From Blautia sp. (GTDB taxonomy: Bacteria > Bacillota > Clostridia > Lachnospirales > Lachnospiraceae), in contig JALFGN010000092.1 in NCBI GenBank assembly GCA_022777285.1, positions 1-52,613 of the forward strand: 52,613 nt of DNA. The letters run 5' to 3'. Shown here piece after piece: positions 22,111 to 50,033 of the stretch; position 1 is the stretch's first letter; every line of letters begins with the position of its first letter. The translations under genes were made by a program, and so were the position numbers. The notes under the pieces are model-generated. The model worked only from the letters and a program-made list of their open reading frames with translations, ran no database searches and was not told the origin of the DNA.

Positions 22111-22135
22111 TAGTCTCCTCCTTGATCGGTAAGAA

Positions 22136-22501
22136 TTATTTCTCCATAAATCCTCTGATTCTGGCATTTTCCAGTGCAGCCTCTTTATTAACCTCAGAAA
22201 TCTGTGCACAGGTAAGATCATTTAATCCGAACACTCTCTTTGTACCGCCGATTGCTGTAAGCTGTACTTCTTTTTCTTCTCCTGGTTCAAATCTTACGGA
22301 AGTTCCGGATGGGATATCGAGATGATATCCATACGCCTTTTCCCTGTCGAATTTCAGATAACGGTTTACCTCAAAAAAATGAAAATGAGAACCTACCTGA
22401 ATTGGACGATCACCTGTATTTGCGACTGATACATGAACAGATGATTTTCCTTCATTTAATATAATTTCTCTTTCCAATGGAATGATTTCACCGATTTTCA
22501 T
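22136..22501 (-). CDS. ureB: Urease subunit beta
   Basis: 121 residues. Typical UreB sequence: [15 protein letters not shown] at the N-terminus, then [18 protein letters not shown] and a C-terminal region ending near RIRGFMEK. It is a separate gene rather than fused to ureA as in Helicobacter. It sits 14 bases behind ureA and 25 bases ahead of ureC, each with a good ribosome site. Confidence 0.97.
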
Positions 22502-34360: not shown

Positions 34361-34912
34361 CTATATTTCATCATAAATTAAAGTGAGTATCATCTGGGCG
34401 GTTTCCACCATACTGGTCGAACTGTCCATACTGCACTTTTGAATATATCTGTAGGCCTCTTCCTCCGTCAGATGATTTCTCTCCATCAGGAGCAGTTTGG
34501 CATTTTTAATATAATTCTGCTCTTTTTCACTTCTTGCTTTTGGTTTTTTCTTCTGTTTTCTTAATCTCCGCTCAATTTGCATCATCTGCATTTCTACAGT
34601 ATTCACAAATTCATGAATGCGCAGAGGCATGGTCACTGCCATGATTCCTGACTGCACCGAGCTGACTACATTGACTGAACCGATTAAGAGCATATCAAAA
34701 AATTCCGGAAGCATATCCGCAAGTTCTTTATAATACATATCAGATAATTTATAACCACTGATCACCAGACCTGCCGATTGTTTGTTCATTTCCATAAGGG
34801 CAGCTGCACCGTTGGGGCAGGCCATGGTATTGTCAAATCCATGCTGCATGAGTATTTTGCGGATTTTTTTTGCATCTTCTATTTTAGGTAAAACGATAAT
34901 GATGCTGCTCAT
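34361..34912 (-). CDS. ANTAR-domain RNA-binding antiterminator with pseudo-receiver domain
   Basis: 183 residues. The N-terminal 120 have a receiver-like fold, but the phospho-acceptor position (GLVISGYKLSDM) has no aspartate, so control is probably not by phosphorylation. After a basic coiled linker (RRLRKQKKKPKARSEKEQ) comes the ANTAR domain (NAKLLLMERNHLTEEEAYRYIQ...). ANTAR proteins bind hexaloop hairpins in nascent leaders and block terminator formation. The gene lies 23 bases behind glnA; four nitrogen leaders in this window carry matching hairpin/terminator pairs, so it is the inferred regulator of all of them. Confidence 0.88.
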   Translation of the reverse strand: MSSIIIVLPKIEDAKKIRKILMQHGFDNTMACPNGAAALMEMNKQSAGLVISGYKLSDMYYKELADMLPEFFDMLLIGSVNVVSSVQSGIMAVTMPLRIHEFVNTVEMQMMQIERRLRKQKKKPKARSEKEQNYIKNAKLLLMERNHLTEEEAYRYIQKCSMDSSTSMVETAQMILTLIYDEI

Positions 34913-34935
34913 GCGCTGTCTGCCTCCTGTTATAT

Positions 34936-36267
34936 TTATACGCGGTATAAATACTGTTCAATTTCCCATTCGGAAACCTGCTCCATGTAATTTAACCACT
35001 CTTCTTTTTTTGCTTTCAAATAACACTTCGAAAAGTTTTGTCCTAACACTTCCTGTACAAGAGAATCTTCTTTAAACTCTTTCAAAGCTTCGCTGAGATT
35101 TTCCGGAAGGGAATCGATTCCCAGTTCTTCTTTCTCCTGTTTCGTCAACTTCCGAATACTTCTTTTCAGTTCCAGTGGTGCTTGCATATTCTTCTCAATT
35201 CCATCGATACCTGCTGCCAGACAAAGAGCCAGTACCAGATATGGATTGGAAGATGCATCCGGACTTCTCAGTTCCAGATGTGTTCCCTCCTCCTTACGGT
35301 AAGGAACACGGATCAACGCAGTTCGCTGTCTGGAAGACCAGGTAATCTCAGAAGGTGCCTCGAATCCCGGTGCAAGACGTTTATAAGAATTCACCAGCGG
35401 ATTACAGATTGCTGTCATTCCTTTAATATGATTCAGAATCCCTGCCATAAAAGCATATGCTTCTTTACTAAGACCCAATTCATCCGACTTATCCGTAAAA
35501 ATATTTTTACCATCTTTCATCAGCATCATATTCACATGCATTCCGGATCCATTCACACCCGCTCTTGGCTTCGGCATAAATGTAGCATGAAGACCATGAC
35601 GCTTTGCAATTGTACGAACTGCAGTCTTAAATGTTACAATTTTATCTGCTGTTTCCATGGTTCCGGAATATTCAAAGTCGATTTCATGCTGTCCTGGAGC
35701 AATTTCGTGATGGGATGATTCGATATCATATCCCATCTCTTCCAGTGTCAGAACCATATCTCTTCTTGCATTTTCGCCAAGATCAATCGGACTCAGATCC
35801 ATATAACCTGCTTTTTCATGGGTCTTTGTCGTTGGCATTCCGTTGTCATCTGTATGAAAAAGAAAGAATTCACATTCCGGATCTACCATAAGAGTATATC
35901 CTTTTTCCTTTGCTTTCTGAATTACTTTTTTCAGAATATATCTTGGGCTTTCCTGATAGGGTGTACCATCTTCCTTGTAAATATCACAGATAAACCGGGC
36001 AACTTTTCCCTGCTGCGGACGCCACGGTAATATGGTAAATGTAGACAGATCCGGGTACAAATACATATCTGCCTCTTCGTTTCGAATAAATCCCTCAATG
36101 GAGGAAGCATCAATGACACATTGATTGTCCATTGCTTTTTCCAGTTTGCTGTATGGAATAGCAATGTTCTTTAACGTACCGAACATATCAGTGAACTGCA
36201 GACGGATAAATTCTACATCTTCTTCTTCCGCCATCTGCAAAATCGCTTCCTTGGTGTAATCTCCCAT
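34936..36267 (-). CDS. glnA: Glutamine synthetase, type I
   Basis: 443 residues from the ATG at 36267 (GAGAGGAG upstream); the in-frame extension lies in leader RNA. GS-I motifs: VDPECEFFLF, HHEIAPGQHEIDFEY, ATFMPKPRAGVNGSGMH and APSEITWSSRQRTALIRVPY. The length and lack of the adenylylation tyrosine loop fit the Firmicutes GSI-alpha group. Makes glutamine from glutamate, ammonia and ATP. First gene of a probable glnA-ANTAR-dapL operon with a promoter, hexaloop hairpin and leader terminator upstream. Confidence 0.96.
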   Translation of the reverse strand: MGDYTKEAILQMAEEEDVEFIRLQFTDMFGTLKNIAIPYSKLEKAMDNQCVIDASSIEGFIRNEEADMYLYPDLSTFTILPWRPQQGKVARFICDIYKEDGTPYQESPRYILKKVIQKAKEKGYTLMVDPECEFFLFHTDDNGMPTTKTHEKAGYMDLSPIDLGENARRDMVLTLEEMGYDIESSHHEIAPGQHEIDFEYSGTMETADKIVTFKTAVRTIAKRHGLHATFMPKPRAGVNGSGMHVNMMLMKDGKNIFTDKSDELGLSKEAYAFMAGILNHIKGMTAICNPLVNSYKRLAPGFEAPSEITWSSRQRTALIRVPYRKEEGTHLELRSPDASSNPYLVLALCLAAGIDGIEKNMQAPLELKRSIRKLTKQEKEELGIDSLPENLSEALKEFKEDSLVQEVLGQNFSKCYLKAKKEEWLNYMEQVSEWEIEQYLYRV

Positions 36268-36330
36268 ATCGAAATCTCCTCTCTTCGAGTTTTTATTTAT
36301 TTTTTTCATTAAAATTTTCTTCTATATGTT

Positions 36331-36378
36331 AAAAAAAGGCGATCTTATCCAGAGTACCCTCTGAATAAGAACGCCTTT
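36331..36378 (-). terminator. Leader terminator (attenuator) of glnA
   Basis: A 20-bp stem with one mismatch and one G-U pair (36359-36378 with 36335-36354), 4-base loop, then seven T on the minus strand, about 65 bases before the glnA start. Its 5' arm overlaps the alternative hexaloop hairpin. Confidence 0.88.
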
Positions 36379-36384
36379 GTTCTC
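36367..36384 (-). promoter_or_regulatory. ANTAR-type hexaloop hairpin in the glnA leader
   Basis: On the RNA, GAGAAC - AAAGGC - GUUCUU: a 6-bp stem closing a six-base loop with A at position 1 and G at position 4, the ANTAR consensus. It uses the first 12 bases of the terminator's 5' arm, so the two structures exclude each other. It begins about 9 bases after the predicted start site. Confidence 0.7.
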
Positions 36385-36399
36385 CCATTTATGTCTGGT

Positions 36400-36428
36400 A
36401 TTATAACAATACCAATTTTTGTTGTCAA
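36400..36428 (-). promoter_or_regulatory. glnA promoter (TTGACA-17-TATAAT)
   Basis: Perfect sigma-A hexamers at 36423-36428 and 36400-36405 on the minus strand with a 17-base spacer. An inverted repeat (TTGGTATT / AATACCAG) straddles the -10 and could be an operator. Confidence 0.8.
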
Positions 36429-36451
36429 TAGGAGAATTGCATAAAACTTCA

Positions 36452-36511
36452 AAAAATCGGCCATACAGCCCATGATACAACTCGCGCTCATGAACTGTAT
36501 GACCAATTTTT
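36452..36511 (-). terminator. Terminator of the ammonium channel gene
   Basis: A 24-bp imperfect stem rich in G-U pairs (36488-36511 with 36452-36475), ending in TTTTTT on the minus strand, 19 bases after the stop codon. It separates the amt-PII gene from the glnA promoter. Confidence 0.85.
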
Positions 36512-36530
36512 AATTACAAATCTATCTTTC

Positions 36531-38282
36531 TTATTCTGCAGTATCTTGTAATGCCTGGAATCCTTCTTCACCAGTACGGATCTTCACTACATTTTCAATA
36601 TCATATACGAAGACTTTACCGTCACCGATCTTACCGGTATGAAGAACTGCTTTTGCTGTCTCGATTACCTTTTCAACCGGTACAAGGCTTACAACGATCT
36701 CAATCTTAACTTTCGGCAGCAGATTCATATCCATCTCAACACCACGGTAGTAAGAAGTTGTACCTTTCTGTACCCCACATCCTAATACGTTGGTAATGGT
36801 AATACCTGTAACACCGATTTCATTCATTGCCTGCATAAACTCTTCCAGTTTATTTCTACGTGTGATAATAACAACTTTTGTAAGTTTGTGTACACTGGTT
36901 CCTTCTGCCGGCACTTCTTTTACCACTTCAGCAGGAGCCTGTGTAGCAGACGCACCTTCCATAACCGGTGTATAATTTTTCTTTGTACCCATTACATTTG
37001 GTACGCTTGCCATATTGTCTGTTGTAATAAAATCTGCATAGCTGCTTGCCAGACCATGTTCTCTTACATCCAGACCTGCGATTTCTTCATCTGCAGATAC
37101 ACGAAGACCCATTGTATGTTTGATTGCCTGGAAAATAATTGCCATGGTTACTACTACCCATGCTACTGTTGCGATAAATCCGATAAACTGAACACTAAGG
37201 AGTTTCACTCCGCCGCCTGTAAACAGACCTTTCCATTCTGTACCGGTACCATCTGAGAAAAGACCTACACAAAGAGTACCAAGTGCACCGCACATACCGT
37301 GCACACCAACAGCACCTACCGGATCATCGATTTTACATACTTTATCAATAAATTCAATACCAAATACAACTACAAATCCGGAAAGAATACCAATAATCGC
37401 TGCAGATGTAGGAGATACAGTATCACATCCTGCTGTAATAGCAACCAGACCTGCCAGAGAACCATTCAGTGACATGGAAACATCTGGTTTTTTGTACATG
37501 ACCCATGTAATGATCATAACTGTTACAGTAGCAACTGCTGCTGCCAGGTTTGTTGTTACGAAAATTTTACCTGCTGATACAATGGCATCTCCTTCCATAG
37601 ATACAGTAGAAGCACCATTAAATCCAAACCAGCAGAACCAGAGGATAAATACACCAAGTGCTCCGATTGTCAGGTTATGACCTGGAATCGCTTTTGATTT
37701 TCCGCTCTTTGTATATTTTCCAATACGTGGTCCAAGAATTTTTGCACCTACTAAAGCGGCAACACCGCCTACCATATGAACGGCACAGGAACCTGCAAAA
37801 TCATGAAATCCCATCTGCGCCAGCCAGCCGCCGCCCCAAATCCAGTGACCGGATACCGGATAAACGATCAGACTGATCAGTAAACTGTAAATACAGTAAG
37901 ATGAAAATTTTGTTCTCTCAGCCATAGCTCCTGATACGATGGTTGCGGATGTAGCACAGAATACTGTCTGGAAAATCAGAAATGCCCAGAAAGGAACACC
38001 ATCCGGCAGCATACCGTTTCCATAATTCGCTTCCGAAGCAATACCGGAAATAGAACCAAAGAAGCCGCTTCCGCTTCCAAACATAATACCAAATCCAATC
38101 AGCCAGAATGCCGGTGTACCGATACTGAAGTCCATCAGGTTCTTCATAATAATATTACCGGCGTTTTTTGCACGGGTAAATCCAGTCTCTACCATAGCAA
38201 AACCAGCCTGCATAAAAAATACCAATGCGGCGCCTAAAAGCACCCAAATCGTGTTAACAGCTGAATAATCCATGTTAATCAC
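36531..38282 (-). CDS. Ammonium channel fused to a C-terminal PII signalling domain
   Basis: 583 residues. The first 400 are a complete Amt channel (about 11 membrane helices; twin-histidine pore H169 and H328). After a 60-residue Ala/Glu/Pro-rich linker comes a full PII/GlnK domain (about 465-575): [18 protein letters not shown], a T-loop with tyrosines 511-512 ([10 protein letters not shown]), and the B-loop [12 protein letters not shown]. Free GlnK normally plugs AmtB when nitrogen is plentiful; here the sensor is tethered to its own channel. Expression has a leader terminator with a hexaloop hairpin. Confidence 0.95.
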
Positions 38283-38332
38283 TCCTCCTTCTCAAGCTCA
38301 CATTTTTCTTATCTGTTCACATTTTTCTAAAT

Positions 38333-38381
38333 AAAAAGGCACATACCGGGAATCCAAGCACCGGATTCCCAGATATGCACC
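38333..38381 (-). terminator. Leader terminator (attenuator) of amt-PII
   Basis: On the minus strand a stem of about 18 bp with one bulged base (38363-38381 with 38338-38355), 7-base loop, then TTTTTATTT, 50 bases before the start codon. It might also end purF transcripts, but its 5' arm overlaps a hexaloop hairpin as in the other nitrogen leaders. Confidence 0.8.
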
Positions 38382-38389
38382 ATCGCATA
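38374..38389 (-). promoter_or_regulatory. ANTAR-type hexaloop hairpin in the amt-PII leader
   Basis: RNA UAUGC - GAUGGU - GCAUA, a 5-bp stem with a six-base loop carrying G at position 4 but G instead of A at position 1. It overlaps the terminator's 5' arm. This is the weakest of the four; I found no clear promoter for it. Confidence 0.5.
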
Positions 38390-38436
38390 AAGAAAAATGT
38401 GATATATGTAATCGGAAAATGAAAACACTTCCGCAA

Positions 38437-39852
38437 TTACTGTTTTTTGTCCTCTGCATGCCCGGTAATATCCATCGGATATTGCTTATCAAAACAGGCT
38501 TTACAGATTGGAAGATCTCCTACCATTGACTGCAGATCCTCCAGCTTCATATAGCCGAGCGATTCCGCTCCAATCATGTCACAAATCTCATTTGCTGTGT
38601 GGGAAGAAGCAATAAGCTGTTTGTTGGATGGAATATCCGTTCCGAAATAGCAAGGATACAGGAACGGTGGAGAACTAACACGTACATGAACGCTGACTGC
38701 CCCCGCCTTTTTCAACATTCGGATGAGGTTTGCCATTGTAGTGCCGCGGACGATGGAGTCGTCTACCAAAATGATGCGTTTTCCGCGAACAACAGGCTCT
38801 AATACATTAAGCTTCAGGCGGACACTATCCTCACGTTCTTTCTGTGTCGGCTTTATAAATGTTCTTCCCACATAGCTGTTTTTATAAAAGGCCATTCCAA
38901 AAGGAATCCCGGATGCTTCCGAATAGCCTTTTGCTGCGGGAACACCTGAGTCCGGTACCCCCACAACAAGGTCTGCATCTACAGGATACGCAGCAGCAAG
39001 AGCTGCTCCTGCACGAATGCGGGCATCATAGATATTGATGCCGTCCAGGGTACTGTCCAACCTTGCAAAATAAATATACTCAAAAATACAATGAGCTCTT
39101 TTTTCCTGACAAAGCTGACAGTTTGAGGTGATTCCGTCCTCTGTTATAGTGACAATCTCACCAGGACGGATATCGCGAATAAACTCTGCGCCAATTGCAG
39201 AAAGGGCGCAGCTTTCAGAGGCAATGATATAGGAAGAGTCACGTTTTCCCAGACAAAGGGGTTTTAAACCAAGAGGGTCCCGGACACCGATGAGTTTACG
39301 CGGACTGGCAATGACCAGACCATAAGCGCCCCGGATTTTTTTTGCTGTGCGAAGAATTGCTTCTTCTACATTACGCGTATTTACCCTTTCTCTGGCAATA
39401 TAATAGGCAATTACCTCTGAATCAGTTGTTGTATGGAAAATTGCACCTGTTTTCTCCAGATCATCCCTGAGGTCTTGAGTATTCACCAGATTGCCGTTAT
39501 GGGCTAGGGCAAGTGTTCCCTTAATATAATTTAGTACCAGCGGCTGCGCATTATTAATTGTAGCAGCACCTGTTGTAGAATATCTCACATGACCGATTCC
39601 CAGATTTCCATGAAGTCCTGAAAGAATATCTTCCTTAAACACTTCACTTACAAGTCCCATGCCTTTGTGAGCATTCATATTTCCTTTTGGACCCTGGGTA
39701 TCGCATACAGCGATACCACAGGATTCCTGACCGCGATGCTGAAGAGAACTAAGTCCATAATAAATGGAATTTGCCACATCTTCACCATTCGGATTAAACA
39801 TTCCGAATACACCGCACTCTTCTTTTATCTCAATATCTGGTAACAATTCCAT
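38437..39852 (-). CDS. purF: Amidophosphoribosyltransferase
   Basis: 471 residues from the ATG at 39852. A short propeptide ends before C13 (IKEECGVFGMF), which becomes the N-terminal nucleophile of the glutaminase domain. The PRPP loop is intact (ILVDDSIVRGTTMANLIR). Cysteines in CIFEYIYFAR, LYPCYFG and CKACFD fit the [4Fe-4S] Bacillus-type enzyme. Commits PRPP and glutamine to purine synthesis. It follows glnN by 12 bases, an unusual place away from the pur operon. Confidence 0.95.
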   Translation of the reverse strand: MELLPDIEIKEECGVFGMFNPNGEDVANSIYYGLSSLQHRGQESCGIAVCDTQGPKGNMNAHKGMGLVSEVFKEDILSGLHGNLGIGHVRYSTTGAATINNAQPLVLNYIKGTLALAHNGNLVNTQDLRDDLEKTGAIFHTTTDSEVIAYYIARERVNTRNVEEAILRTAKKIRGAYGLVIASPRKLIGVRDPLGLKPLCLGKRDSSYIIASESCALSAIGAEFIRDIRPGEIVTITEDGITSNCQLCQEKRAHCIFEYIYFARLDSTLDGINIYDARIRAGAALAAAYPVDADLVVGVPDSGVPAAKGYSEASGIPFGMAFYKNSYVGRTFIKPTQKEREDSVRLKLNVLEPVVRGKRIILVDDSIVRGTTMANLIRMLKKAGAVSVHVRVSSPPFLYPCYFGTDIPSNKQLIASSHTANEICDMIGAESLGYMKLEDLQSMVGDLPICKACFDKQYPMDITGHAEDKKQ

Positions 39853-39864
39853 GAAAAACACCTC

Positions 39865-41970
39865 TTAAACATAGAATAATAACTGATCATAAGTTGGGTA
39901 TGGTAATTCTTCATCTGGAATTTTAGCTTCTGTTGCACTTGCGATGTCTTTCATTTCATCCATCAGAGCCAGAACGTTTTCATGGAATAGTTCTGCAGAT
40001 TTCTGCATATCTTCTGCCTCTGCACTTTCTGCTTCTTGTGTAACCACTTTCAGTTCTGCTACTTTTTCAAATAATGTATTCGATGCTTTTGTCAGTTCTG
40101 CTACCAGAGCCTCTTCAGAAGCAGTAGACAGATCTGGAATCAATGCTTTCTTTTCATTTGCATTGACAGCAACTTCTGCTGCGTAAGAATTTACTGCCGG
40201 AATAAAGTCTTTTGTAAGCATCTCCTGTAAAGTCTTAGATTCAATATTAATGGTTTTTGCGTAGTTCTCAAGAAGGATTTCATAACGGGAGAAAATTTCT
40301 TCTTTTGTGAATACACCATGTTTTGTAAACAGTTCCACATTCTTGTCAGCAATGAATCGAGGAAGTGCGTCCGGAGTAGATACCAGATTGTAAAGTCCTC
40401 TTTCTTCTGCTTCTTTTACCCATTCATCCGTATAACCATTGCCATTGAAGATAACTTTTTTATGTTTTTTAATGGCACGTTTGATTAATTCATGTACTGC
40501 TGTTTCCATATCTTCCGGAGCAGTTCCTTCCAGTTCTGTATAGAACTGAGCCAATGCTTCTGCAACAGCTGTGTTCAGTACCACATTTGGATTTGCAACA
40601 GATGCGGAAGAACCAAGCATACGGAATTCAAATTTATTACCTGTAAATGCAAATGGTGATGTACGGTTTCTGTCTGTGGTATCTTTTGTAAAATGAGGCA
40701 GTACATGTGCACCGATATCCATCTGAATTGCTTTCTGACCCACAAAGAACCGGTCTTCTTCAATGGATTTCAGTACTTCTGTCAGTTCATCACCAATAAA
40801 GATAGAAACAATTGCCGGTGGAGCTTCGTTTGCACCAAGACGATGATCGTTTCCTGCTCCTGAAGCAGATACTCTCATCAAATCTGCATAATCATCAACC
40901 GCTTTGATAACTGCCATCAAAAATACCAGGAACTGAATATTTTCTGCCGGTGTTTTTCCCGGATCCAGAAGGTTTACACCTGTGTTTGTTGATACAGACC
41001 AGTTATTGTGTTTACCACTTCCGTTAATACCGTCAAATGGTTTTTCATGAAGCAGGCATACCAGATCATGTTTTTCAGCAACTTTCTTCATAATTTCCAT
41101 TGTCAGCTGATTGTGGTCAACTGCTACATTGGTTGTATCGAATACCGGAGCCAGCTCATGCTGTGCAGGTGCAACTTCGTTATGTTTTGTTTTTGCAGGA
41201 ATACCAAGTTTCCAGAGTTCTTCATCCAAATCATGCATATAAGCTGCAACTCTCGGTTTTAAAGCTCCGAAATAATGATCTTCCATTTCCTGTCCCTTCG
41301 GTGCAGATGCTCCGAACAGTGTTCTTCCTGTAAAAATCAGATCACGACGTTTCGCATATAATTCTTTTGGAACCAGGAAATATTCCTGTTCCGGACCTAC
41401 CGTTGTTGTTACGCTTGTAACATCGGTATTGCCCAGAAGATGCAGCATTTTAACTGCTTCTTTATTTAAAGCTTCCATAGAACGCAGCAACGGCGTCTTC
41501 TTATCCAGTGCTTCTCCGCTCCAGGAACAGAATGCTGTCGGAATATATAATGTATTATCTTTGATGAAAGCCGGTGAAGTAGGATCCCAGTTTGTATATC
41601 CTCTTGCTTCAAATGTGGCTCTTAATCCTCCGGAAGGAAAGCTGGAAGCGTCTGGTTCACCCTTTACCAGTTCTTTTCCTGAGAACTCCATGATCACTTC
41701 TCCTTCTCCTGTAGGAGAGATAAAACTGTCATGTTTTTCTGCAGTATATCCTGTCATAGGCTGGAACCAATGTGTAAAATGTGTTGCTCCATTTTCTACT
41801 GCCCATTCTTTCATGGCAACTGCTACGGAGTTTGCAACATCCAGTTCCAGATGTGTTCCATTTTCAATTGTTTTTCGAAGAGCTTTATAAACATCTTTCG
41901 GTAATTTGTTGCGCATTACCTTGTCACTGAAAACAAGGCTTCCATATAGTGTAGGAATATCTTTAGACAT
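39865..41970 (-). CDS. glnN: Glutamine synthetase, type III
   Basis: 701 residues from the ATG at 41970 (AAAGGAG 10 bases upstream); earlier in-frame starts lie in leader RNA. Length and motifs are those of [47 protein letters not shown]-like segment and [12 protein letters not shown]. Makes glutamine as a dodecamer unrelated in size to GSI. Its co-operon partner is purF, so glutamine made here has an adjacent consumer. Its leader has a terminator and hexaloop hairpin. Confidence 0.96.
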
Positions 41971-42022
41971 ATTCTCAGCACTCCTTTCCATATTTTTCTT
42001 TATGTTCTGTAATTTTAAAAAT

Positions 42023-42062
42023 AAAAAAGGCACTTCGAACTTTTTCAGTTCAAAGCGCCTTT
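42023..42062 (-). terminator. Leader terminator (attenuator) of glnN-purF
   Basis: A 15-bp stem with two G-U pairs (42048-42062 with 42026-42040), 7-base loop, then six T on the minus strand, about 50 bases before the glnN start. Confidence 0.87.
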
Positions 42063-42068
42063 GCTTTA
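42051..42068 (-). promoter_or_regulatory. ANTAR-type hexaloop hairpin in the glnN leader
   Basis: RNA UAAAGC - AAAGGC - GCUUUG: 6-bp stem (one G-U), loop with A1 and G4, identical to the glnA loop. It uses the first 12 bases of the terminator's 5' arm, so antitermination is possible. Confidence 0.7.
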
Positions 42069-42076
42069 TGCCATGT

Positions 42077-42105
42077 AGTATTGCACGGAAAAAATGAATT
42101 GTCAA
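42077..42105 (-). promoter_or_regulatory. glnN promoter (TTGACA-17-AATACT)
   Basis: TTGACA at 42100-42105 and AATACT at 42077-42082 on the minus strand. The rest of the 379-bp glnN-pyrG region holds the two leaders, the pyrG promoter and about 95 bp (42106-42201) in which I see nothing more. Confidence 0.65.
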
Positions 42106-42201
42106 TAGTTTTTTTGGAAAATTTCAAAAAAATAAAAAAGGGGATTTACAAATCAACAGAAATGAGCTATAGTAATGCCATAATTTTTTTGCACCGATTT
42201 T

Positions 42202-42229
42202 TTGCAGAAAAATGTGATACTACTATATA
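42202..42229 (+). promoter_or_regulatory. pyrG-gltBD promoter (TTGCAG-16-TATATA)
   Basis: TTGCAG at 42202-42207 and TATATA at 42224-42229. The spacer contains most of the 12-mer AGAAAAATGTGA (42206-42217) that recurs in the amt leader, so this may be an operator rather than part of the promoter consensus. Confidence 0.55.
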
Positions 42230-42236
42230 GAAGAAA

Positions 42237-42250
42237 CGACAACGGCGTCG
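42237..42250 (+). promoter_or_regulatory. ANTAR-type hexaloop hairpin in the pyrG leader
   Basis: RNA CGAC - AACGGC - GUCG: 4-bp stem, six-base loop with A1 and G4. It overlaps the start of the terminator's 5' arm at 42245, so the structures exclude each other. Confidence 0.62.
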
Positions 42251-42290
42251 ATGTTCCATAACTGATTATGGGATATTCGACGCTTTTTTT
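42245..42290 (+). terminator. Leader terminator (attenuator) of pyrG-gltB-gltD
   Basis: A stem of about 16 bp with one bulge (42245-42261 with 42266-42283), 4-base loop, then seven T, 60 bases before the pyrG start. Unlike Bacillus pyrG there is no GGG run at the transcript start, so CTP-dependent reiterative transcription is not indicated. Confidence 0.88.
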
Positions 42291-42349
42291 CGTGTTTCAG
42301 GATCCGCATAACCTTTACACGAAGCCAAAAGCAGCAGGAGGAAAATGTG

Positions 42350-43966
42350 ATGGCAGTTAAATATGTATTTGTTACAGGTGGCGTTGTTTCAGGCCTTGGA
42401 AAAGGTATTACAGCAGCATCACTTGGCCGTCTGCTGAAAGCAAGGGGATACAAAGTAACCATGCAGAAATTTGATCCTTACATTAATGTAGACCCTGGTA
42501 CTATGAACCCCATTCAGCACGGCGAAGTATTTGTCACAGATGACGGAACAGAAACGGATCTGGATCTTGGCCATTATGAACGCTTTATTGATGAAAGCCT
42601 GGATAAGAATTCAAATGTAACGACAGGTAAAATTTACTGGTCCGTACTTCAGAAAGAACGTCATGGTGATTACGGCGGAGGTACCGTACAGGTCATTCCC
42701 CATATTACAAATGAAATTAAAAGCCGCTTTTATCGGGCAAAATATCCGGATGAAGAGAGAATTGCCATTATTGAAGTAGGCGGTACTGCAGGAGATATTG
42801 AAAGCCAGCCATTTTTGGAGGCCATTCGTCAGTTCCAACATGATGTAGGACATGAAAATGCCATTTTGATTCATGTTACCTTAATCCCTTATCTGAAAGC
42901 ATCCGGTGAACTGAAAACAAAGCCCACACAGGCCAGCGTAAAAGAACTGCAGGGAATGGGATTACAGCCGGATGTACTGGTGTGCCGTTCCGAACATCCA
43001 ATTGAACAGGATATCAAAGACAAAATCGCTCTGTTCTGCAATGTGCCTCAAAGCCATGTATTGCAGAATCTGGACGTAGAATATTTATATGAGGCACCTC
43101 TTGCCATGGAAAAAGAATATCTGGCACAGGTTGTCTGCGAATCTCTGAAACTTCCTTGTCCTGAACCGGATCTTGAGGATTGGAAATGTATGGTCAATGA
43201 TCTGAGAAATCCGGAAACAGAAGTAGAGATTGCTATCGTAGGAAAATACATTCAGCTTCATGATGCTTATCTGAGTGTTGTGGAGGCATTAAAACACGGC
43301 GGTATCGCCAGTCGTGCAAATGTTCAGATCCGTTGGATCGACTCTGAAACACTGGATGAATCCAACTACGAAGAATCTCTTGCCGGTCTGGACGGAATCC
43401 TTGTTCCCGGTGGTTTTGGAACAAGAGGTACCGAAGGAAAAATTCTTGCTGTAAAATATGCCCGCGAAAATAAAGTCCCGTTTCTCGGTATTTGCCTGGG
43501 TATGCAGACGGCAATCATTGAATTTGCACGAAATGTGCTGGGATATCATGATGCCAACAGCATTGAATTGAACCCGGATACCCTTCATCCGGTGATTGCA
43601 CTGATGCCGGAACAGGATGGTGTCGAAGATCTGGGTGGTACCTTAAGACTGGGTTCTTACCCGTGCAAATTGAAAGAAGGAACCAAATCTTATTCCCTTT
43701 ACGGAAAACAGGATATTGCTGAACGTCACAGACACCGCTACGAAGTAAACAACGATTATCGTCAGCAGCTTGAATCTCATGGTATGACCCTTGCCGGTCT
43801 TTCACCGGACGGAAGAATCGTAGAGATGATTGAAATTACCGATCATCCATTCTTTATCGGCACACAGGGACATCCGGAACTGAAATCCAGACCGAATCAT
43901 GCACATCCTCTCTTCAGAGGACTGGTACATGCGGCTGCCACATACAAAAAGGAAAGAGGTCAATAA
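42350..43966 (+). CDS. pyrG: CTP synthase
   Basis: 538 residues from the ATG at 42350 (AGGAGG 8 bases upstream). N-terminal synthetase domain ([37 protein letters not shown]) and C-terminal glutamine amidotransferase domain (catalytic Cys in [10 protein letters not shown], His/Glu in [12 protein letters not shown]). Aminates UTP to CTP with glutamine nitrogen. Here it heads an operon with gltB (1 base apart) and gltD, an unusual linkage of CTP synthesis with GOGAT. Confidence 0.97.
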
Positions 43967-43967
43967 T

Positions 43968-46900
43968 ATGATGAAAGAACAAGGTTTATATCGACAGCAA
44001 TTCGAACATGATAACTGCGGTATCGGTGCCGTAGTAAACAGCAAAGGTATCAAAAGCCATAAAACTGTTGAAAATGCTTTGAAAATCGTAGAACATCTGG
44101 AGCACAGAGCCGGTAAAGATGCAGAGGGTAAAACCGGCGACGGTGTTGGTATCCTGCTTCAGATTTCTCATAAATTCTTTTCCAAAACCTGTAAAAAAGA
44201 AGGCATCCATATCGGCGGAGAAAGAGAATACGGTATTGCCATGCTTTTCCTTCCTCAGGATGAACTGAAATGCAACCAGGCGAAAAAAATGTTTGAAGTC
44301 ATCGTTGAAAAAGAAGGAATGGAATTCCTCGGATATCGTACCGTACCTGTATGTCCTGAAGTTCTTGGTCACAAAGCTCTGGAAAAAATGCCTCACATTG
44401 TTCAGGCCTTTATCAAGAAACCGGAAGATGTGGAAGCAGGACTGCCTTTTGACCGGAAACTTTATATTGCCCGCCGTGTATTTGAACAGAGTAATGACAA
44501 TACTTATGTAGTTTCCATGTCCAGCCGTACCATTGTATATAAAGGTATGTTCCTGGTAGGTCAGCTTCGTACATTCTTTGCAGATCTTCAGGATGCTGAC
44601 TATGAATCTGCCATTGCTATGGTACATTCCCGTTTCAGTACAAACACCAACCCAAGCTGGGAACGTGCACATCCAAACCGCTTCATTGTACATAACGGTG
44701 AAATCAATACCATCAAAGGAAATGCAGATAAAATGCTCGCCAGAGAAGAAACCATGGCTTCTGATTATCTGAAAGGACAACTCCATAAAGTTCTTCCTGT
44801 TGTAGATACCAGAGGTTCCGATTCTGCAATGCTTGATAATACCCTTGAATTTCTCGTAATGAACGGTATGGATCTGCCTCTGGCAGTTATGGTATGTATT
44901 CCGGAACCATGGTCAAACAATCAGACCCTTTCACAGGAAAGGAGAGATTTCTATCAGTATTATGCAACTATGATGGAACCATGGGATGGACCTGCTTCCA
45001 TTCTGTTTTCTGATGGTGATGTAATGGGTGCTGTACTGGACCGCAACGGTCTTCGTCCTTCCCGTTACTATATTACAAAAAATGGTGATGTAATCCTTTC
45101 CTCTGAAGTAGGTGTCATGCCTGTACCGGAAGAAGATATTGTATTAAAGGAACGCCTGCATCCCGGAAAAATCCTTTTGGTGGATACTGTAAAAGGTGAA
45201 ATTCTCAATGATGATGCAATCAAAGAAAGATATGCCTTAAGACAGCCTTACGGAGAATGGCTGGACAGCAATCTGGTTGAACTTTCCGATCTGAAAATTC
45301 CTAACATGAAAGTGGAAAGCTATGAAAACGAAGAACTGACCAGAATGCAGAAAGCATTTGGATATACTTACGAAGAATACCGCCAGTCCATCTACAATAT
45401 GGCATTAAACAGCACAGAAGGTATTTCTGCTATGGGTATTGATACACCTCTGGCTGTACTTTCCGAGAAACATCAGCCTCTGTTTAATTATTTCAAACAG
45501 CTTTTTGCACAGGTTACCAATCCTCCAATCGATGCCATCCGTGAAGAGATCGTTACCAGTACAACTGTCTATGTCGGAAAAGATGGAAACCTGCTTCATG
45601 AACAGCCGGAAAACTGCCAGGTACTGAAAATCAATCATCCGATCCTGACCAATACAGACATGCTGAAAATCAAACACATGAACGTAAAAGGGTTTAAAGT
45701 AGCAGTTGTTCCGATTACTTATTATAAGAGTACCAGACTTGACCGTGCCATTGACCGTCTCTTTGTGGAAGTAGATAAAGCATACAAAGACGGTGCAAAC
45801 ATTCTGGTTCTCTCTGACCGTGGCGTAGACGAAAACCATATGCCGATTCCGTCACTTTTGGCAGTATCTGCTGTTCACCAGTATCTGGTTAAAACAAAGA
45901 AGAGAACTTCTCTTGCAATCATCCTGGAATCCGGTGAACCAAGAGAAGTCCATCACTTCGCTACGCTTCTCGGCTATGGTGCAAGTGCAATTAACCCTTA
46001 TCTTGCACAGGATACAATCAAAAATCTGGTAGACAGCAACATGCTGGATAAAGATTATTATGCTGCAGTAAACGATTACAACAGTGCAATTCTTCACGGT
46101 ATCGTAAAAATTGCTTCCAAAATGGGTATTTCCACTATCCAGTCTTATCAGGGTTCTAAGATTTTCGAAGCAATCGGTATCTCACAGGATGTAATCGGTA
46201 AATATTTTACAGGTACGGTAAGTCGTGTCGGCGGTATTACATTAAAAGACATTGAAAATGATGTAGATACCCGTCACTCAAAAGCTTTCGATCCCCTTGG
46301 TCTGCCTACCAATCTTCAGTTAGACAGCCTTGGCATGCACAAAGCAAAAAGTGAAGGAGAAAAACATCGTTACAATCCTCAGACCATCCATGCACTCCAG
46401 CAGGCAACCAAGAGAGGCGATTACAACCTCTTCAAAGAATATACCGCCATGGTGGATAAAGAACAGAGTGGTTATCTGAGAAGTCTTATGGATTTCAATT
46501 ATGCAGAAAATCCAATTCCTATTGATGAAGTAGAGAGCGTTGACGAGATCGTAAAACACTTTAAAACAGGTGCCATGTCTTATGGTTCCATTTCACAGGA
46601 AGCTCATGAAACACTGGCCATTGCCATGAACATGCTTCACGGAAAATCCAATACTGGTGAAGGTGGTGAAAGTGACGAACGTCTTGACAGTGCAGGATCT
46701 GAAGTAGACAGATGTTCTGCAATCAAACAGGTAGCTTCCGGACGATTTGGTGTTACCAGCCGTTATCTTGTAAGCGCAAAAGAAATCCAGATTAAAATGG
46801 CACAGGGTGCAAAACCAGGTGAGGGTGGTCATTTGCCGGCTAAAAAAGTTTACCCATGGATTGCAAAAACCAGACATTCTACCCCGGGTGTAAGTCTGAT

Positions 46901-48506
46901 TTCCCCTCCGCCACACCACGATATTTATTCCATCGAAGATCTGGCAGAGCTGATCTACGACCTGAAAAACGCAAACAAATATGCAAGAATCTCTGTAAAA
47001 CTTGTTTCTGAAGCAGGTGTTGGTACCGTAGCAGCCGGTGTTGCAAAAGCCGGTGCACAGGTAATCCTGATTTCCGGTTATGACGGTGGTACCGGTGCTG
47101 CTCCTCAGAGTTCCATTCACAATGCAGGTCTTCCATGGGAACTCGGTCTTGCAGAAACACACCAGACACTGCTTATGAACGGACTTCGTAACCGCGTTGT
47201 AATCGAAACGGACGGTAAGCTTATGAGCGGCCGTGATGTTGCCATCGCTGCCCTTCTCGGTGCAGAAGAATTCGGTTTTGCTACTGCTCCTCTTGTAACC
47301 ATGGGATGTGTTATGATGAGAGTCTGCAACCTGGATACCTGTCCGGTAGGTGTTGCAACACAGAATCCGGAACTTAGAAAACGTTTCCGTGGAAAACCGG
47401 AATATGTTGTAAACTTCATGCGTTTTATTGCTCAGGAACTGCGTGAATATATGGCAAAACTTGGTGTTCGTACACTGGATGAAATGGTCGGAAGAAGCGA
47501 TCTTCTGAAAGTAAAAGATAATCCGGAACATGCCATTGCTTCCCAGATTGACTTAAGTGCAATCCTGAACAATCCATTTGCAGAAAAAGGAGCAAAAGTT
47601 ACCTTTGATCCTTCTCAGGTATATGATTTCAAACTGGAAGAAACAAAAGATGAAAAAATCCTTCTGAAAAAACTTCAGAAATCTGTGGAAAAAGCAGAAA
47701 AAGCTTCTGTTTCCATTGATGTAACGAACACAGACCGTGCATTCGGTACTATCCTGGGTGCAGAAATCACCAGACAGCACAAAGAAGGACTTCCGGATGA
47801 TACCATTACCATCAACTGTAACGGTGCAGGCGGTCAGAGCTTCGGCGCATTCATTCCAAAAGGTCTGACTCTGACTCTGTGCGGTGACTGTAATGACTAC
47901 ATGGGCAAAGGTCTGTCCGGTGGTAAAATTGTCGTTTATCCGCCAAAATGCAGAAACTACAAAGCAGATGAAAACATTATCACAGGTAACGTTGCTCTCT
48001 ATGGCGCTACAAGTGGTACCGCATTTATCAACGGTATGGCAGGTGAACGTTTCGCAGTTCGTAACTCCGGTGCTTACGCCGTTGTAGAAGGTGTGGGTGA
48101 ACATGGATGTGAATACATGACCGGCGGCCGCGTAGTCGTACTTGGTAAAACAGACAAAAACTTTGCAGCCGGTATGAGCGGCGGTGTTGCTTATGTACTG
48201 GATGAAAAAAATGAATTATACAAGAACCTGAATAAAGCAATGATCTCAATTGAAAAAGTAGAACTGAAACCGGATATTCAGGAACTTCATGATATGATCG
48301 CAGCCCATGTAGCTGCTACCGGTTCTGAAAAAGGCCAGAAGATTTTGGATCATTTCCAGGAATATCTTCCGAAATTTAAGAAAATCATTCCGGATGACTA
48401 TAAGAAAATGATCGCAACAGCTACCCGACTGGAAGAAATGGGTATGACACCGGAACAGGCTCAGTTAGAAGCCTTTAATGAAAACTTTCAGAAAGGAGCA
48501 GAATAA
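43968..48506 (+). CDS. gltB: Glutamate synthase (GOGAT) large subunit
   Basis: 1512 residues from the ATG at 43968 (AAAGAGG upstream; an ATG follows directly at 43971). A propeptide of 16 residues precedes the nucleophile C17 (EHDNCGIGAVV). Domains in order: type II glutaminase, central domain, FMN-binding synthase domain with the [3Fe-4S] cysteines (CVMMRVCNLDTCPVGVATQ), and the GXGXG structural domain. Transfers the glutamine amide to 2-oxoglutarate, making two glutamates. Confidence 0.97.
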   Translation: MMKEQGLYRQQFEHDNCGIGAVVNSKGIKSHKTVENALKIVEHLEHRAGKDAEGKTGDGVGILLQISHKFFSKTCKKEGIHIGGEREYGIAMLFLPQDELKCNQAKKMFEVIVEKEGMEFLGYRTVPVCPEVLGHKALEKMPHIVQAFIKKPEDVEAGLPFDRKLYIARRVFEQSNDNTYVVSMSSRTIVYKGMFLVGQLRTFFADLQDADYESAIAMVHSRFSTNTNPSWERAHPNRFIVHNGEINTIKGNADKMLAREETMASDYLKGQLHKVLPVVDTRGSDSAMLDNTLEFLVMNGMDLPLAVMVCIPEPWSNNQTLSQERRDFYQYYATMMEPWDGPASILFSDGDVMGAVLDRNGLRPSRYYITKNGDVILSSEVGVMPVPEEDIVLKERLHPGKILLVDTVKGEILNDDAIKERYALRQPYGEWLDSNLVELSDLKIPNMKVESYENEELTRMQKAFGYTYEEYRQSIYNMALNSTEGISAMGIDTPLAVLSEKHQPLFNYFKQLFAQVTNPPIDAIREEIVTSTTVYVGKDGNLLHEQPENCQVLKINHPILTNTDMLKIKHMNVKGFKVAVVPITYYKSTRLDRAIDRLFVEVDKAYKDGANILVLSDRGVDENHMPIPSLLAVSAVHQYLVKTKKRTSLAIILESGEPREVHHFATLLGYGASAINPYLAQDTIKNLVDSNMLDKDYYAAVNDYNSAILHGIVKIASKMGISTIQSYQGSKIFEAIGISQDVIGKYFTGTVSRVGGITLKDIENDVDTRHSKAFDPLGLPTNLQLDSLGMHKAKSEGEKHRYNPQTIHALQQATKRGDYNLFKEYTAMVDKEQSGYLRSLMDFNYAENPIPIDEVESVDEIVKHFKTGAMSYGSISQEAHETLAIAMNMLHGKSNTGEGGESDERLDSAGSEVDRCSAIKQVASGRFGVTSRYLVSAKEIQIKMAQGAKPGEGGHLPAKKVYPWIAKTRHSTPGVSLISPPPHHDIYSIEDLAELIYDLKNANKYARISVKLVSEAGVGTVAAGVAKAGAQVILISGYDGGTGAAPQSSIHNAGLPWELGLAETHQTLLMNGLRNRVVIETDGKLMSGRDVAIAALLGAEEFGFATAPLVTMGCVMMRVCNLDTCPVGVATQNPELRKRFRGKPEYVVNFMRFIAQELREYMAKLGVRTLDEMVGRSDLLKVKDNPEHAIASQIDLSAILNNPFAEKGAKVTFDPSQVYDFKLEETKDEKILLKKLQKSVEKAEKASVSIDVTNTDRAFGTILGAEITRQHKEGLPDDTITINCNGAGGQSFGAFIPKGLTLTLCGDCNDYMGKGLSGGKIVVYPPKCRNYKADENIITGNVALYGATSGTAFINGMAGERFAVRNSGAYAVVEGVGEHGCEYMTGGRVVVLGKTDKNFAAGMSGGVAYVLDEKNELYKNLNKAMISIEKVELKPDIQELHDMIAAHVAATGSEKGQKILDHFQEYLPKFKKIIPDDYKKMIATATRLEEMGMTPEQAQLEAFNENFQKGAE

Positions 48507-48508
48507 AA

Positions 48509-49993
48509 ATGGGAAAGCCAACAGGATTTTTAGAGTATCCAAGAGAAACTGCAAAAGTAGAATCTCCAAAAGAAAGAATCAAACATTTTAATGAATTTCG
48601 TACCCCTCTGTCAAAGGAGGCTCAGCAGAAACAGGGTGCACGCTGCATGGAATGCGGCGTCCCCTTCTGCCAGGCAGGTATTATGATCTCCGGAATGGCA
48701 TCCGGATGTCCCCTGCACAATCTGGTACCGGAAGTAAATGATCTGGTCTATCATGGAAACTGGAAGCAGGCTTACGACCGTCTCAGCAAGACTCACAGCT
48801 TTCCGGAATTTACCTGCAGGGTATGCCCGGCCCTTTGCGAGGCTGCTTGTACCTGCAATCTGGATTCTCAGCCTGTATCCACAAAGGAAAATGAACGTGC
48901 TGTAATCGAAACTGCTTATGCCAATGGATGGGTAAAACCACAGCCTCCAAAAGTACGGACCGGCAAAAAAGTAGCTGTAATCGGAAGCGGTCCTTCCGGA
49001 CTTGCAGCTGCACAGCAACTGAACAAACGTGGACATCAAGTAACCGTATTTGAAAGAAAAGACCGAATCGGTGGTCTGCTCCGCTATGGAATCCCAAATA
49101 TGAAACTGGACAAATCCATCATTGACAGAAGACTGAAAGTCATGGAAGAAGAAGGTATTGTATTTAAAACAGGCATTGATGTTGGCAAAGATATTACTGC
49201 AAAAGAACTGCAGAAAGAATTTGACCGTATTGTTCTGTGCTGCGGCGCTTCCAACCCAAGAGATATCAATGTCCCGGGGCGTGATGCAAACAATATCTTC
49301 TTTGCAGTAGATTATCTCTCTTCCATCACCAAGAGCCTTCTTGATTCCGGATTCAAAGATAAAAATTTTGTATCCGCAAAAGGCAAACATGTCATCGTTA
49401 TCGGTGGCGGTGATACCGGAAATGACTGTGTAGGAACCGCCATCCGTCTGGGTGCAAAATCTGTAACACAGCTAGAAATGATGCCGAAAGCACCAGATAC
49501 CAGAACAGAAAACAATCCTTGGCCGGAATGGCCCCGTGTCTGCAAAACAGACTACGGCCAGGAAGAAGCCATTGCCGTATTTGGTCATGATCCTCGTATC
49601 TATCAGACCACTGTTACCGAATTCATCAAAGATGAAAAAGGAAATGTACAGAAAGCCAAACTGGTCAAACTGGAACCGAAAAAAGACGAAAAGACAGGCC
49701 GCATGAACATGGTTCCTGTAGAAGGAACAGAACAGATCGTGGAAGCACAGCTTGTACTGATTGCAGCCGGTTTTCTGGGAAGCCAGAAATATGTGACCGA
49801 TGCTTTCAAAGTTGCTCTGAATCCAAGAACGAACGTCGCTACCGAACCGGATCAGTATGAAACCTCTGTACCTGGCATATTTACTGCCGGTGATATGCAC
49901 AGAGGGCAGTCTCTGGTCGTATGGGCGATCCGCGAAGGACGAAAAGCTGCCGAAGCAGTGGATGCTTCTTTGATGGGATATTCAAACTTATAA
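48509..49993 (+). CDS. gltD: Glutamate synthase small subunit
   Basis: 494 residues, 2 bases after gltB. N-terminal [4Fe-4S] cysteines (CMECGVPFCQ; CRVCPALCEAAC), an FAD-binding motif (VAVIGSGPSGLAAAQQL) and an NAD(P)H-binding motif (HVIVIGGGDTGNDCVGTA). It passes electrons from NADPH to the FMN of GltB. Terminated by the tRNA-like hairpin downstream. Confidence 0.96.
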   Translation: MGKPTGFLEYPRETAKVESPKERIKHFNEFRTPLSKEAQQKQGARCMECGVPFCQAGIMISGMASGCPLHNLVPEVNDLVYHGNWKQAYDRLSKTHSFPEFTCRVCPALCEAACTCNLDSQPVSTKENERAVIETAYANGWVKPQPPKVRTGKKVAVIGSGPSGLAAAQQLNKRGHQVTVFERKDRIGGLLRYGIPNMKLDKSIIDRRLKVMEEEGIVFKTGIDVGKDITAKELQKEFDRIVLCCGASNPRDINVPGRDANNIFFAVDYLSSITKSLLDSGFKDKNFVSAKGKHVIVIGGGDTGNDCVGTAIRLGAKSVTQLEMMPKAPDTRTENNPWPEWPRVCKTDYGQEEAIAVFGHDPRIYQTTVTEFIKDEKGNVQKAKLVKLEPKKDEKTGRMNMVPVEGTEQIVEAQLVLIAAGFLGSQKYVTDAFKVALNPRTNVATEPDQYETSVPGIFTAGDMHRGQSLVVWAIREGRKAAEAVDASLMGYSNL

Positions 49994-50033
49994 ATTTCAT
50001 TTTATTCTTTTTATTGCTACCTCTTATAGAAAA

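Follow-up and report, generated by a model that had tools for sequence, protein, structure and literature searches.

A candidate nitrogen regulon in a Blautia genome: an ANTAR protein and four terminator leaders with a hexaloop hairpin

We analysed a stretch of 52,613 nucleotides from Blautia sp. (GenBank assembly GCA_022777285.1, contig JALFGN010000092.1), hereafter the window, in which four operons, glnA-nitR, amt-PII, glnN-purF and pyrG-gltB (the last with a gltD-like open reading frame, ORF), each begin with a short RNA leader. Each leader can adopt either of two mutually exclusive structures: a hairpin of 14-18 nt with a six-base loop (hexaloop), or an intrinsic terminator whose 5' arm consists of that loop and the 3' arm of the hairpin. 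We consider it probable (roughly 0.83) that NitR, the ANTAR protein encoded by nitR, binds the single hexaloop at the 5' end of the transcript, blocks the terminator and so switches on the four operons. An original prediction, made from the letters of the window, had proposed such an antitermination regulon; it is now supported by covariation, by a test independent of the stem, by co-occurrence with ANTAR genes and by the C:G-closed loop with A at position 1 (A1) and G at position 4 (G4), from which we infer the binding of NitR. The targets in the window are two glutamine synthetases, an ammonium transporter and three glutamine amidotransferases (PurF, PyrG and GltB), i.e. a set for the synthesis and consumption of the glutamine amide.

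The predicted folding energies range from -3.1 to -4.5 kcal/mol for the four hairpins and from -22.5 to -27.3 kcal/mol for the terminators; because the terminator is far more stable, the hexaloop hairpin needs outside help. All four loops contain G4 and are closed by a C-G pair, and three contain A1 (amt has G). The terminators and overlapping hairpins were found where the original prediction had placed them, and a scan of both strands of the whole window for a loop [AG]A.GG[CTA], a stem of at least four pairs and an overlapping terminator returned exactly these four sites. Note that the loop pattern was picked after the four loops had been seen; with it, 100 dinucleotide shuffles of the window yielded a mean of 0.25 sites (maximum 3), which fell to 0.06 (maximum 2) for C-G-closed loops and to 0.02 (maximum 1) for terminators of -20 kcal/mol or below. 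Across the whole window, no Rfam family matches the four leaders at the gathering score, and a relaxed search (E <= 5) of the glnA and glnN/pyrG leaders returned no plausible family. A promoter had also been predicted ahead of each terminator. This holds for glnA and glnN; the putative pyrG promoter, common to 11 relatives, is distant, at about 60-63 nt 5' of the window hairpin, and a sigma-70 promoter was looked for ahead of the amt leader and none was recognisable.

The source assembly (2.72 Mb in 146 contigs, 93% complete) has one ANTAR gene only, nitR, which lies 23 nt downstream of glnA and presumably shares its transcript. NitR matches PF03861 with 58 bits against a cut-off of 27.3. Its receiver domain was predicted to lack the phospho-acceptor aspartate, and in an alignment of 46 proteins, comprising the window protein and 45 of the 80 best public relatives, the aspartate (Gly53 in the window protein), the acidic pair and the lysine are lost in all 46. 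NitR does not, in other words, have a phosphorylatable receiver of the EutV type (DD, Asp, Lys).

The same leader stands before the same genes in related bacteria. For a set of 61 genomes (60 relatives and the source assembly), loci were collected by homologue searches with glnN, amt, glnA and gltB, up to 30 loci each, and supplemented with the nitR loci; a scan with the loop filter, which also required a stem, selected 102 sites on them. Eleven sites that had neither an assigned gene nor a promoter matching at least 10 of the 12 consensus positions were dropped, and three unassigned sites were retained on account of a promoter, which biases the promoter count given below slightly upwards. Among the 91 leaders left, 88 precede glnN (30), glnA (21), amt (18), pyrG (13), gltB (5) or purF (1). 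In the stem-free test, sites were chosen by loop sequence and terminator alone, and the pairs flanking the loop were then counted. Near target genes, at least four flanking pairs are present in 82 of 118 sites (46 of 81 distinct), as opposed to a mean of 6.9 and a maximum of 17 in 2000 trials with shuffled 5' flanks; elsewhere in the same loci the count is 11 of 233 sites (10 of 207 distinct, shuffled mean 4.3). Since the 5' arm of the hairpin has no role in the terminator, this suggests selection for the hairpin itself.

Covariation in homologous leaders was assessed on an alignment (A1 alignment) of 56 of 70 distinct leaders, 14 being omitted by hand as atypical loops, second serial units or near-duplicates. 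Both exclusive helices covary: 95.7% of the hairpin cells are paired and 86 carry changes on both sides (21 when shuffled), and for the terminator the figures are 95.0% and 101 (20 when shuffled). Because the hairpin rows of this alignment were selected for stems, the stem-free test is the fair one. C-G closes the loop in all 56 aligned leaders and in 50 of 50 glnA leaders of public genome records; the selection asked here only for a Watson-Crick pair of any kind, and G4 was part of the scan filter in the relatives. A covariance model of the leader, R1, also finds leaders in relatives.

According to the original prediction, only one hairpin fits in each predicted transcript. In the related set, 68 of the 91 leaders have a promoter matching at least 10 of 12 positions within 60 nt; counted by distinct upstream regions these are 58 of 81, where shuffles give 1.2 on average and at most 4. 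The hairpin of these 68 leaders starts at a median of 4 nt past the expected transcription start. In 55 of them at most 13 nt are transcribed before the hairpin, too short for a partner hairpin, and the remaining 13, with 14-24 nt, have no upstream hexaloop, so that the number of tandem pairs is zero in 68, counted on predicted promoters. Public genome records tell the same: among the best 80 of 551 NitR relatives, glnA is upstream of nitR in 79 loci, and in 50 of the 79 a promoter of at least 9/12 is followed by a hairpin 3-15 nt past the -10 box, again leaving no room for a partner. At the level of the class we inspected 46 sites in 29 loci (from 84 genomes with matches), counted irrespective of the genes behind them; 31 have a promoter of at least 10, and in 26 of these 31 the hairpin follows within 19 nt. 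Within the window, the one-hairpin claim is strictly supported for glnA and glnN alone. It is not strictly supported for amt and pyrG, although the 64-66 nt 5' of their hairpins contain no C-G-closed hexaloop.

Leaders co-occur with ANTAR genes. PF03861 matches 46 of the 61 related genomes, and R1 matches at E <= 1e-3 occur in 41 of these 46 and in none of the 15 others; this cut-off was picked after the result had been seen, and at E <= 0.05 the counts are 43 of 46 and 4 of 15. Since R1 had been trained on the 61-genome set, both searches were repeated on a class-wide sample of 291 genomes, few of which overlap that set. Here, leaders at E <= 1e-3 are present in 77 of 145 genomes with an ANTAR gene and in 7 of 146 others (Fisher p = 1.4e-21, for counts tallied by hand from two tables and with genomes taken as independent, i.e. 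kinship ignored). Leaders of this kind are class-wide in Clostridia.

Three other explanations have to be weighed, of which the least improbable, although still unlikely, is that the leaders are classical dual-hexaloop ANTAR targets whose real transcripts start further upstream and include a second hairpin, P1. In Enterococcus faecalis, eutP needs two hairpins (PMC3369931), and in the window amt has no mapped promoter and that of pyrG is distant. Of the 23 related leaders without a strong promoter, six have some hexaloop within 45 nt upstream, and those of G049 glnN and G026 gltB look like real partners; both are C-G closed, and their linkers measure about 27 and 33 nt. Some upstream hexaloop is also seen at 9 of the 46 class-level sites, four of them C-G closed by reading (L301, L308, L318 and L321, the last being the first of two serial units). 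Our detector of hairpin pairs had a thin positive control, namely six loci around second ANTAR genes (L152-L157), of which only L152 is, by reading, a eut locus; it found one terminator-linked pair (L156, linker 6 nt) and none in L152, and so may miss pairs. A looser scan (three pairs, C-G closed, linker up to 40 nt) added a few weak pairs with a weak terminator or none. For this reason the single-hairpin claim rests on the lack of room behind predicted promoters and not on the detector. Whatever the sensitivity of the detector, that lack of room in 55 of 68 leaders and in all 50 glnA leaders of the public records that meet the above definition speaks against a second hairpin, as does the absence of an upstream hexaloop in the other 13. 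The limits of the detector are one of several results that weigh against our reading. Another is that 29 of the 79 glnA loci have no leader within that definition; inspection by eye reveals one in at least three of them (L253, L271, L279), and in many of the others the sequence directly 5' reads as the end of a gltD/pyrG-like gene, so that glnA probably lies inside such an operon. Likewise, four of the five hairpin pairs of the alignment show two-sided changes, no more than the 3.3 of shuffled alignments, and the amt leader is the weakest of the four, its R1 score of 20.1 bits being under that of an unrelated window terminator (21.4 bits). It is supported by its C-G-closed loop and by the same leader, with loop AAAGGT, in three relatives (G005, G009 and G010; TATGC/AAAGGT/GCGTA).

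Marginally less probable still is that some other RNA-binding protein or a small molecule binds the hairpin, the co-occurrence with ANTAR genes then reflecting a shared nitrogen physiology. To the detriment of NitR are the four genomes without ANTAR gene gained at E <= 0.05, the five of 46 ANTAR genomes that have no leader at E <= 1e-3, and the neglect of kinship in the counts. On the side of a different binder are the seven class-level genomes with leaders and no detected ANTAR gene (G099, G103, G175, G278, G296, G327 and G344). Several leaders of these seven look real; their stems are intact, and by reading they precede glnN or amidotransferase-like genes. A search of the seven with a NitR profile gave no match, or partial matches at E 1e-3 or weaker; with assemblies of 70-420 contigs an ANTAR gene may have been missed, and another protein could bind the hexaloop there. 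The RNA contacts of EutV (taken from PMC8934654, with numbering matched via the alignment) are also only partly retained. The equivalents of K149, E160 and M172 are kept in NitR, that of Tyr164 is His in 27, Tyr in 13 and Phe in 6 of the 46 proteins, and R142, K143, K147 and R168 are not conserved. K143, K147 and M172 are missing from the EutV-like protein of L152 too, and these three are therefore not clean family markers. R155, Y156, Q158, K159 and M162 are invariant in all 46, and NitR may well read the hexaloop with partly different contacts, matching the additional conserved loop positions A2, G5 and C/U6. Against a different binder stand the agreement of loop and closing pair with the ANTAR consensus, the strength of the co-occurrence, the position of nitR directly behind glnA, itself a regulated gene, and the lack of a fitting Rfam family. 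The hairpin lies at the extreme 5' end in many leaders, as would suit a mere stabiliser of the mRNA beside constitutive partial terminators; such a role would require no fixed loop, no fixed C-G closing pair and no overlap with the terminator arm. Here the loop and its closing pair are conserved and covariation is seen in both helices, and we regard a purely stabilising role as very improbable.

If NitR is the regulator, RNA polymerase would start at a sigma-70 promoter and transcribe, almost at once in glnA and glnN, the hexaloop hairpin, whose loop follows the pattern C-[A A/G N G G C/U]-G, sometimes with G in first place. Without NitR, the loop and the 3' arm would be captured by their downstream complement, the terminator would win by about 20 kcal/mol, and the operon would be off. 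Under a shortage of nitrogen or glutamine, NitR would bind the hexaloop as it leaves the polymerase and keep the hairpin closed, and no terminator would form. The glnA-nitR operon would be its own target, giving a positive feedback loop: release of the glnA terminator would also raise NitR, since nitR is only 23 nt behind. As the receiver has no phosphorylation residues, the activity of NitR would be set in some other way. ANTAR proteins of the pseudo-receiver class are regulated via protein-protein contact (PMC7496416). Our guess at the most plausible control is that NitR might be sequestered by a nitrogen-sensing partner, such as glutamine-bound glutamine synthetase (GS) or PII.

The known systems resemble this one to different degrees. 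AmiR of Pseudomonas aeruginosa is, like NitR, a pseudo-receiver ANTAR protein. It differs in having a dedicated partner protein, which NitR is not known to have. It acts on one operon (PMC3369931), whereas several are involved here. The EutV targets of the E. faecalis eut genes share G4, mostly A1, the conserved closing pair, the overlap with a terminator, the ANTAR partner and the nitrogen theme. They differ in having two hairpins where the leaders described here have one, right where the predicted transcript begins; in addition, our leaders are largely fixed at A2, G5 and C/U6, and their regulator has a pseudo-receiver. In the eutP leader, deletion of P1 ablates induction, and the eut linkers measure 5-12 nt, a linker of 3 or 14 nt drastically lowering induction (PMC3369931). 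The structure of EutV with RNA shows one hexaloop as the binding unit; both hairpins are kept for antitermination, P1 being called the recruitment hairpin (PMC8934654). The NasR/nasF leader of Klebsiella also works by hexaloop antitermination, and SELEX (systematic evolution of ligands by exponential enrichment) with NasR gave the same A1, G4 and C:G closing pair (PMC7496416); nasF, however, has two hairpins, and NasR binds a single one weakly, at about 12 uM (PMC7496416). The leaders thus have the A1/G4 hexaloop, the C:G closing pair, the exclusive terminator and the ANTAR-encoding genome of dual-hexaloop targets, but not the two tandem hairpins with a short linker, seen in a minority of other leaders. 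Because this pair is a defining feature, we do not file them under the described ANTAR target family, although we hold that they work alike.

The idea of such a regulon is not in itself new, because control of the GS and glutamate synthase (GOGAT) genes by NitR has been stated: according to one sentence of a review (PMC6316151, citing Stutz 2007), NitR of Clostridium saccharobutylicum induces these genes by antitermination under nitrogen limitation. That system is alike in its ANTAR protein and its GS/GOGAT antitermination and, so far as the sentence allows comparison, different in that further operons (glnN-purF, pyrG-gltB, amt and a fifth on contig C63, see below) and a defined single-hexaloop element are present here. 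A like role was suggested for the ANTAR gene in a GS-GOGAT cluster of Clostridium thermocellum (PMC4676874), and P-II, ammonium transporters, and glutamine and glutamate synthases are among predicted ANTAR targets (PMC3369931). What appears to be new, beside the known ANTAR control of nitrogen genes, is the single-hexaloop design: a literature search by title and abstract, covering top-ranked titles and few subscription papers, returned no recognisable description of single-hexaloop ANTAR leaders or of ANTAR in Lachnospiraceae/Blautia.

We also think it likely, with less confidence than for the regulon, that a large family of minimal ANTAR antiterminators has been overlooked in the Clostridia, one for which a single 5'-terminal hexaloop (C-RANGGY-G) is enough and no recruitment hairpin is needed. 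Such a family would have been missed because published searches demanded a hairpin pair, as did an actinobacterial survey of ANTAR targets (PMC8164766), and surveys of this type may undercount these targets. A recruitment hairpin might be dispensable if NitR were constitutively dimeric and its invariant R155, Y156, Q158, K159 and M162 contacted the extra conserved loop bases. The family would couple the synthesis of glutamine to the consumers of its amide: PurF, CTP synthase, GOGAT and, in relatives, AsnB. The EutV work raised the question of why antitermination needs two hairpins if a dimer binds a single hexaloop, and its answer was the recruitment-hairpin model (PMC8934654). A natural one-hairpin system without space for a second would, if true, directly test that model and offer many short leaders for in vitro study. 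It would also provide a candidate RNA-level nitrogen regulon for Blautia and other gut Clostridia.

Table 1. Genes and leader elements of the four operons in the window (R1, covariance model of the leader)
Feature	Position	Strand	Remarks
nitR, ANTAR protein with degenerate (pseudo-)receiver, 183 aa	34361..34912	-	PF03861, E 8e-16
glnA, glutamine synthetase type I	34936..36309	-	PF00120/PF03951
glnA terminator and T tract	36330..36377	-	-27.0 kcal/mol; R1 39.5 bits
glnA hexaloop hairpin	36367..36384	-	GAGAAC/AAAGGC/GTTCTT; -4.5 kcal/mol
glnA promoter	36400..36428	-	TTGACA-17-TATAAT; 12/12 consensus
amt-PII fusion, ammonium transporter with C-terminal PII domain, single ORF	36531..38282	-	PF00909 and PF00543
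amt terminator and T tract	38329..38381	-	-27.3 kcal/mol; R1 20.1 bits only
amt hexaloop hairpin	38374..38389	-	TATGC/GATGGT/GCATA; window sequence
purF, glutamine-dependent amidophosphoribosyltransferase	38437..39861	-	GATase and Pribosyltran domains
glnN, glutamine synthetase type III	39865..42105	-	PF12437, PF18318, PF00120
glnN terminator and T tract	42020..42062	-	-23.1 kcal/mol; R1 45.8 bits
glnN hexaloop hairpin	42051..42068	-	TAAAGC/AAAGGC/GCTTTG; 8 nt past -10 box
glnN promoter	42077..42105	-	TTGACA-17-AATACT; 10/12 consensus
pyrG promoter	42145..42173	+	TTTACA-17-TATAGT; identical hexamers in 11 relatives
pyrG hexaloop hairpin	42237..42250	+	CGAC/AACGGC/GTCG; window sequence
pyrG terminator and T tract	42244..42291	+	-22.5 kcal/mol; R1 33.1 bits
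pyrG, CTP synthase (glutamine amidotransferase)	42347..43966	+	PF06418, PF00117
gltB, glutamate synthase large subunit (glutamine amidotransferase)	43899..48506	+	PF00310, PF01645 and others
gltD-like small subunit	48509..49993	+	ORF directly 3' of gltB; named by reading, without family search

Two listed ORF starts in Table 1 need a remark: that of glnN is upstream of its leader and that of gltB overlaps pyrG, and the real starts are presumably downstream of the leader and after pyrG, respectively.

The source assembly has a fifth leader at C63:15775-15818 (L188, near 2276-2320), with 33.1 bits by R1, a loop GACGGC that has 3 pairs only beside it, and a promoter TTGACA-17-TACAAT (by reading). 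The operon behind it encodes CP-ATP-grasp, Alpha-E, transglutaminase-like and AstE/AspA proteins, which suggests that this operon, too, may be under nitrogen control. Two further R1 matches were rejected: one in the window at 50026 (21.4 bits), where the loop flanks are unpaired in the alignment, and one on C137 of the same assembly (E 0.04), by reading a gene-end terminator without a visible promoter.

By reading of translations, asnB and PII genes are further associated with leaders in relatives. In one of them (L198, G056:C13:412500-418500), the same leader type stands ahead of a NifH-like ORF, hinting that the element might control nitrogenase there. Two or three hexaloop-terminator units occur in series before one gene in L296, L299, L311, L314, L318, L321, L056, L057, L058, L076 and L081; in relatives each such unit is complete, with its own terminator, and they are apparently serial attenuators. 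A downstream hexaloop was also considered as P1 and rejected: the 70 nt that follow contain an A..G.. hexaloop in 13 of 85 distinct leaders (mean 3.8 and maximum 10 in shuffles); 12 of these hexaloops lack a C-G closing pair, several being tips of glnN terminators, and the remaining one is a second serial unit. The excess over shuffles has no explanation beyond terminator stems.

A C-G-closed hexaloop pair, AGAC/ACTGCG/GTTT followed by TCC/AAAGTR/GGA, 17 nt apart and without a terminator, recurs around the second ANTAR genes of G011 and G007 (L152, minus strand, and L157, plus strand) and is perhaps an EutV target of another kind. The purF-amt spacer of the window (38390-38455, minus strand) carries, ahead of the amt leader, a hairpin GTAATTGCGGA...TCCGATTAC of -13 kcal/mol that is not a hexaloop; by reading, it is found again in G009, G005 and, with different sequence, G010. 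Finally, the Rfam family 5_ureB_sRNA matches the window at 21662-21959 on the plus strand (114.6 bits), antisense within a urease alpha-like ORF (20389-22221, by reading), and this match probably reflects conserved coding sequence rather than a small RNA.

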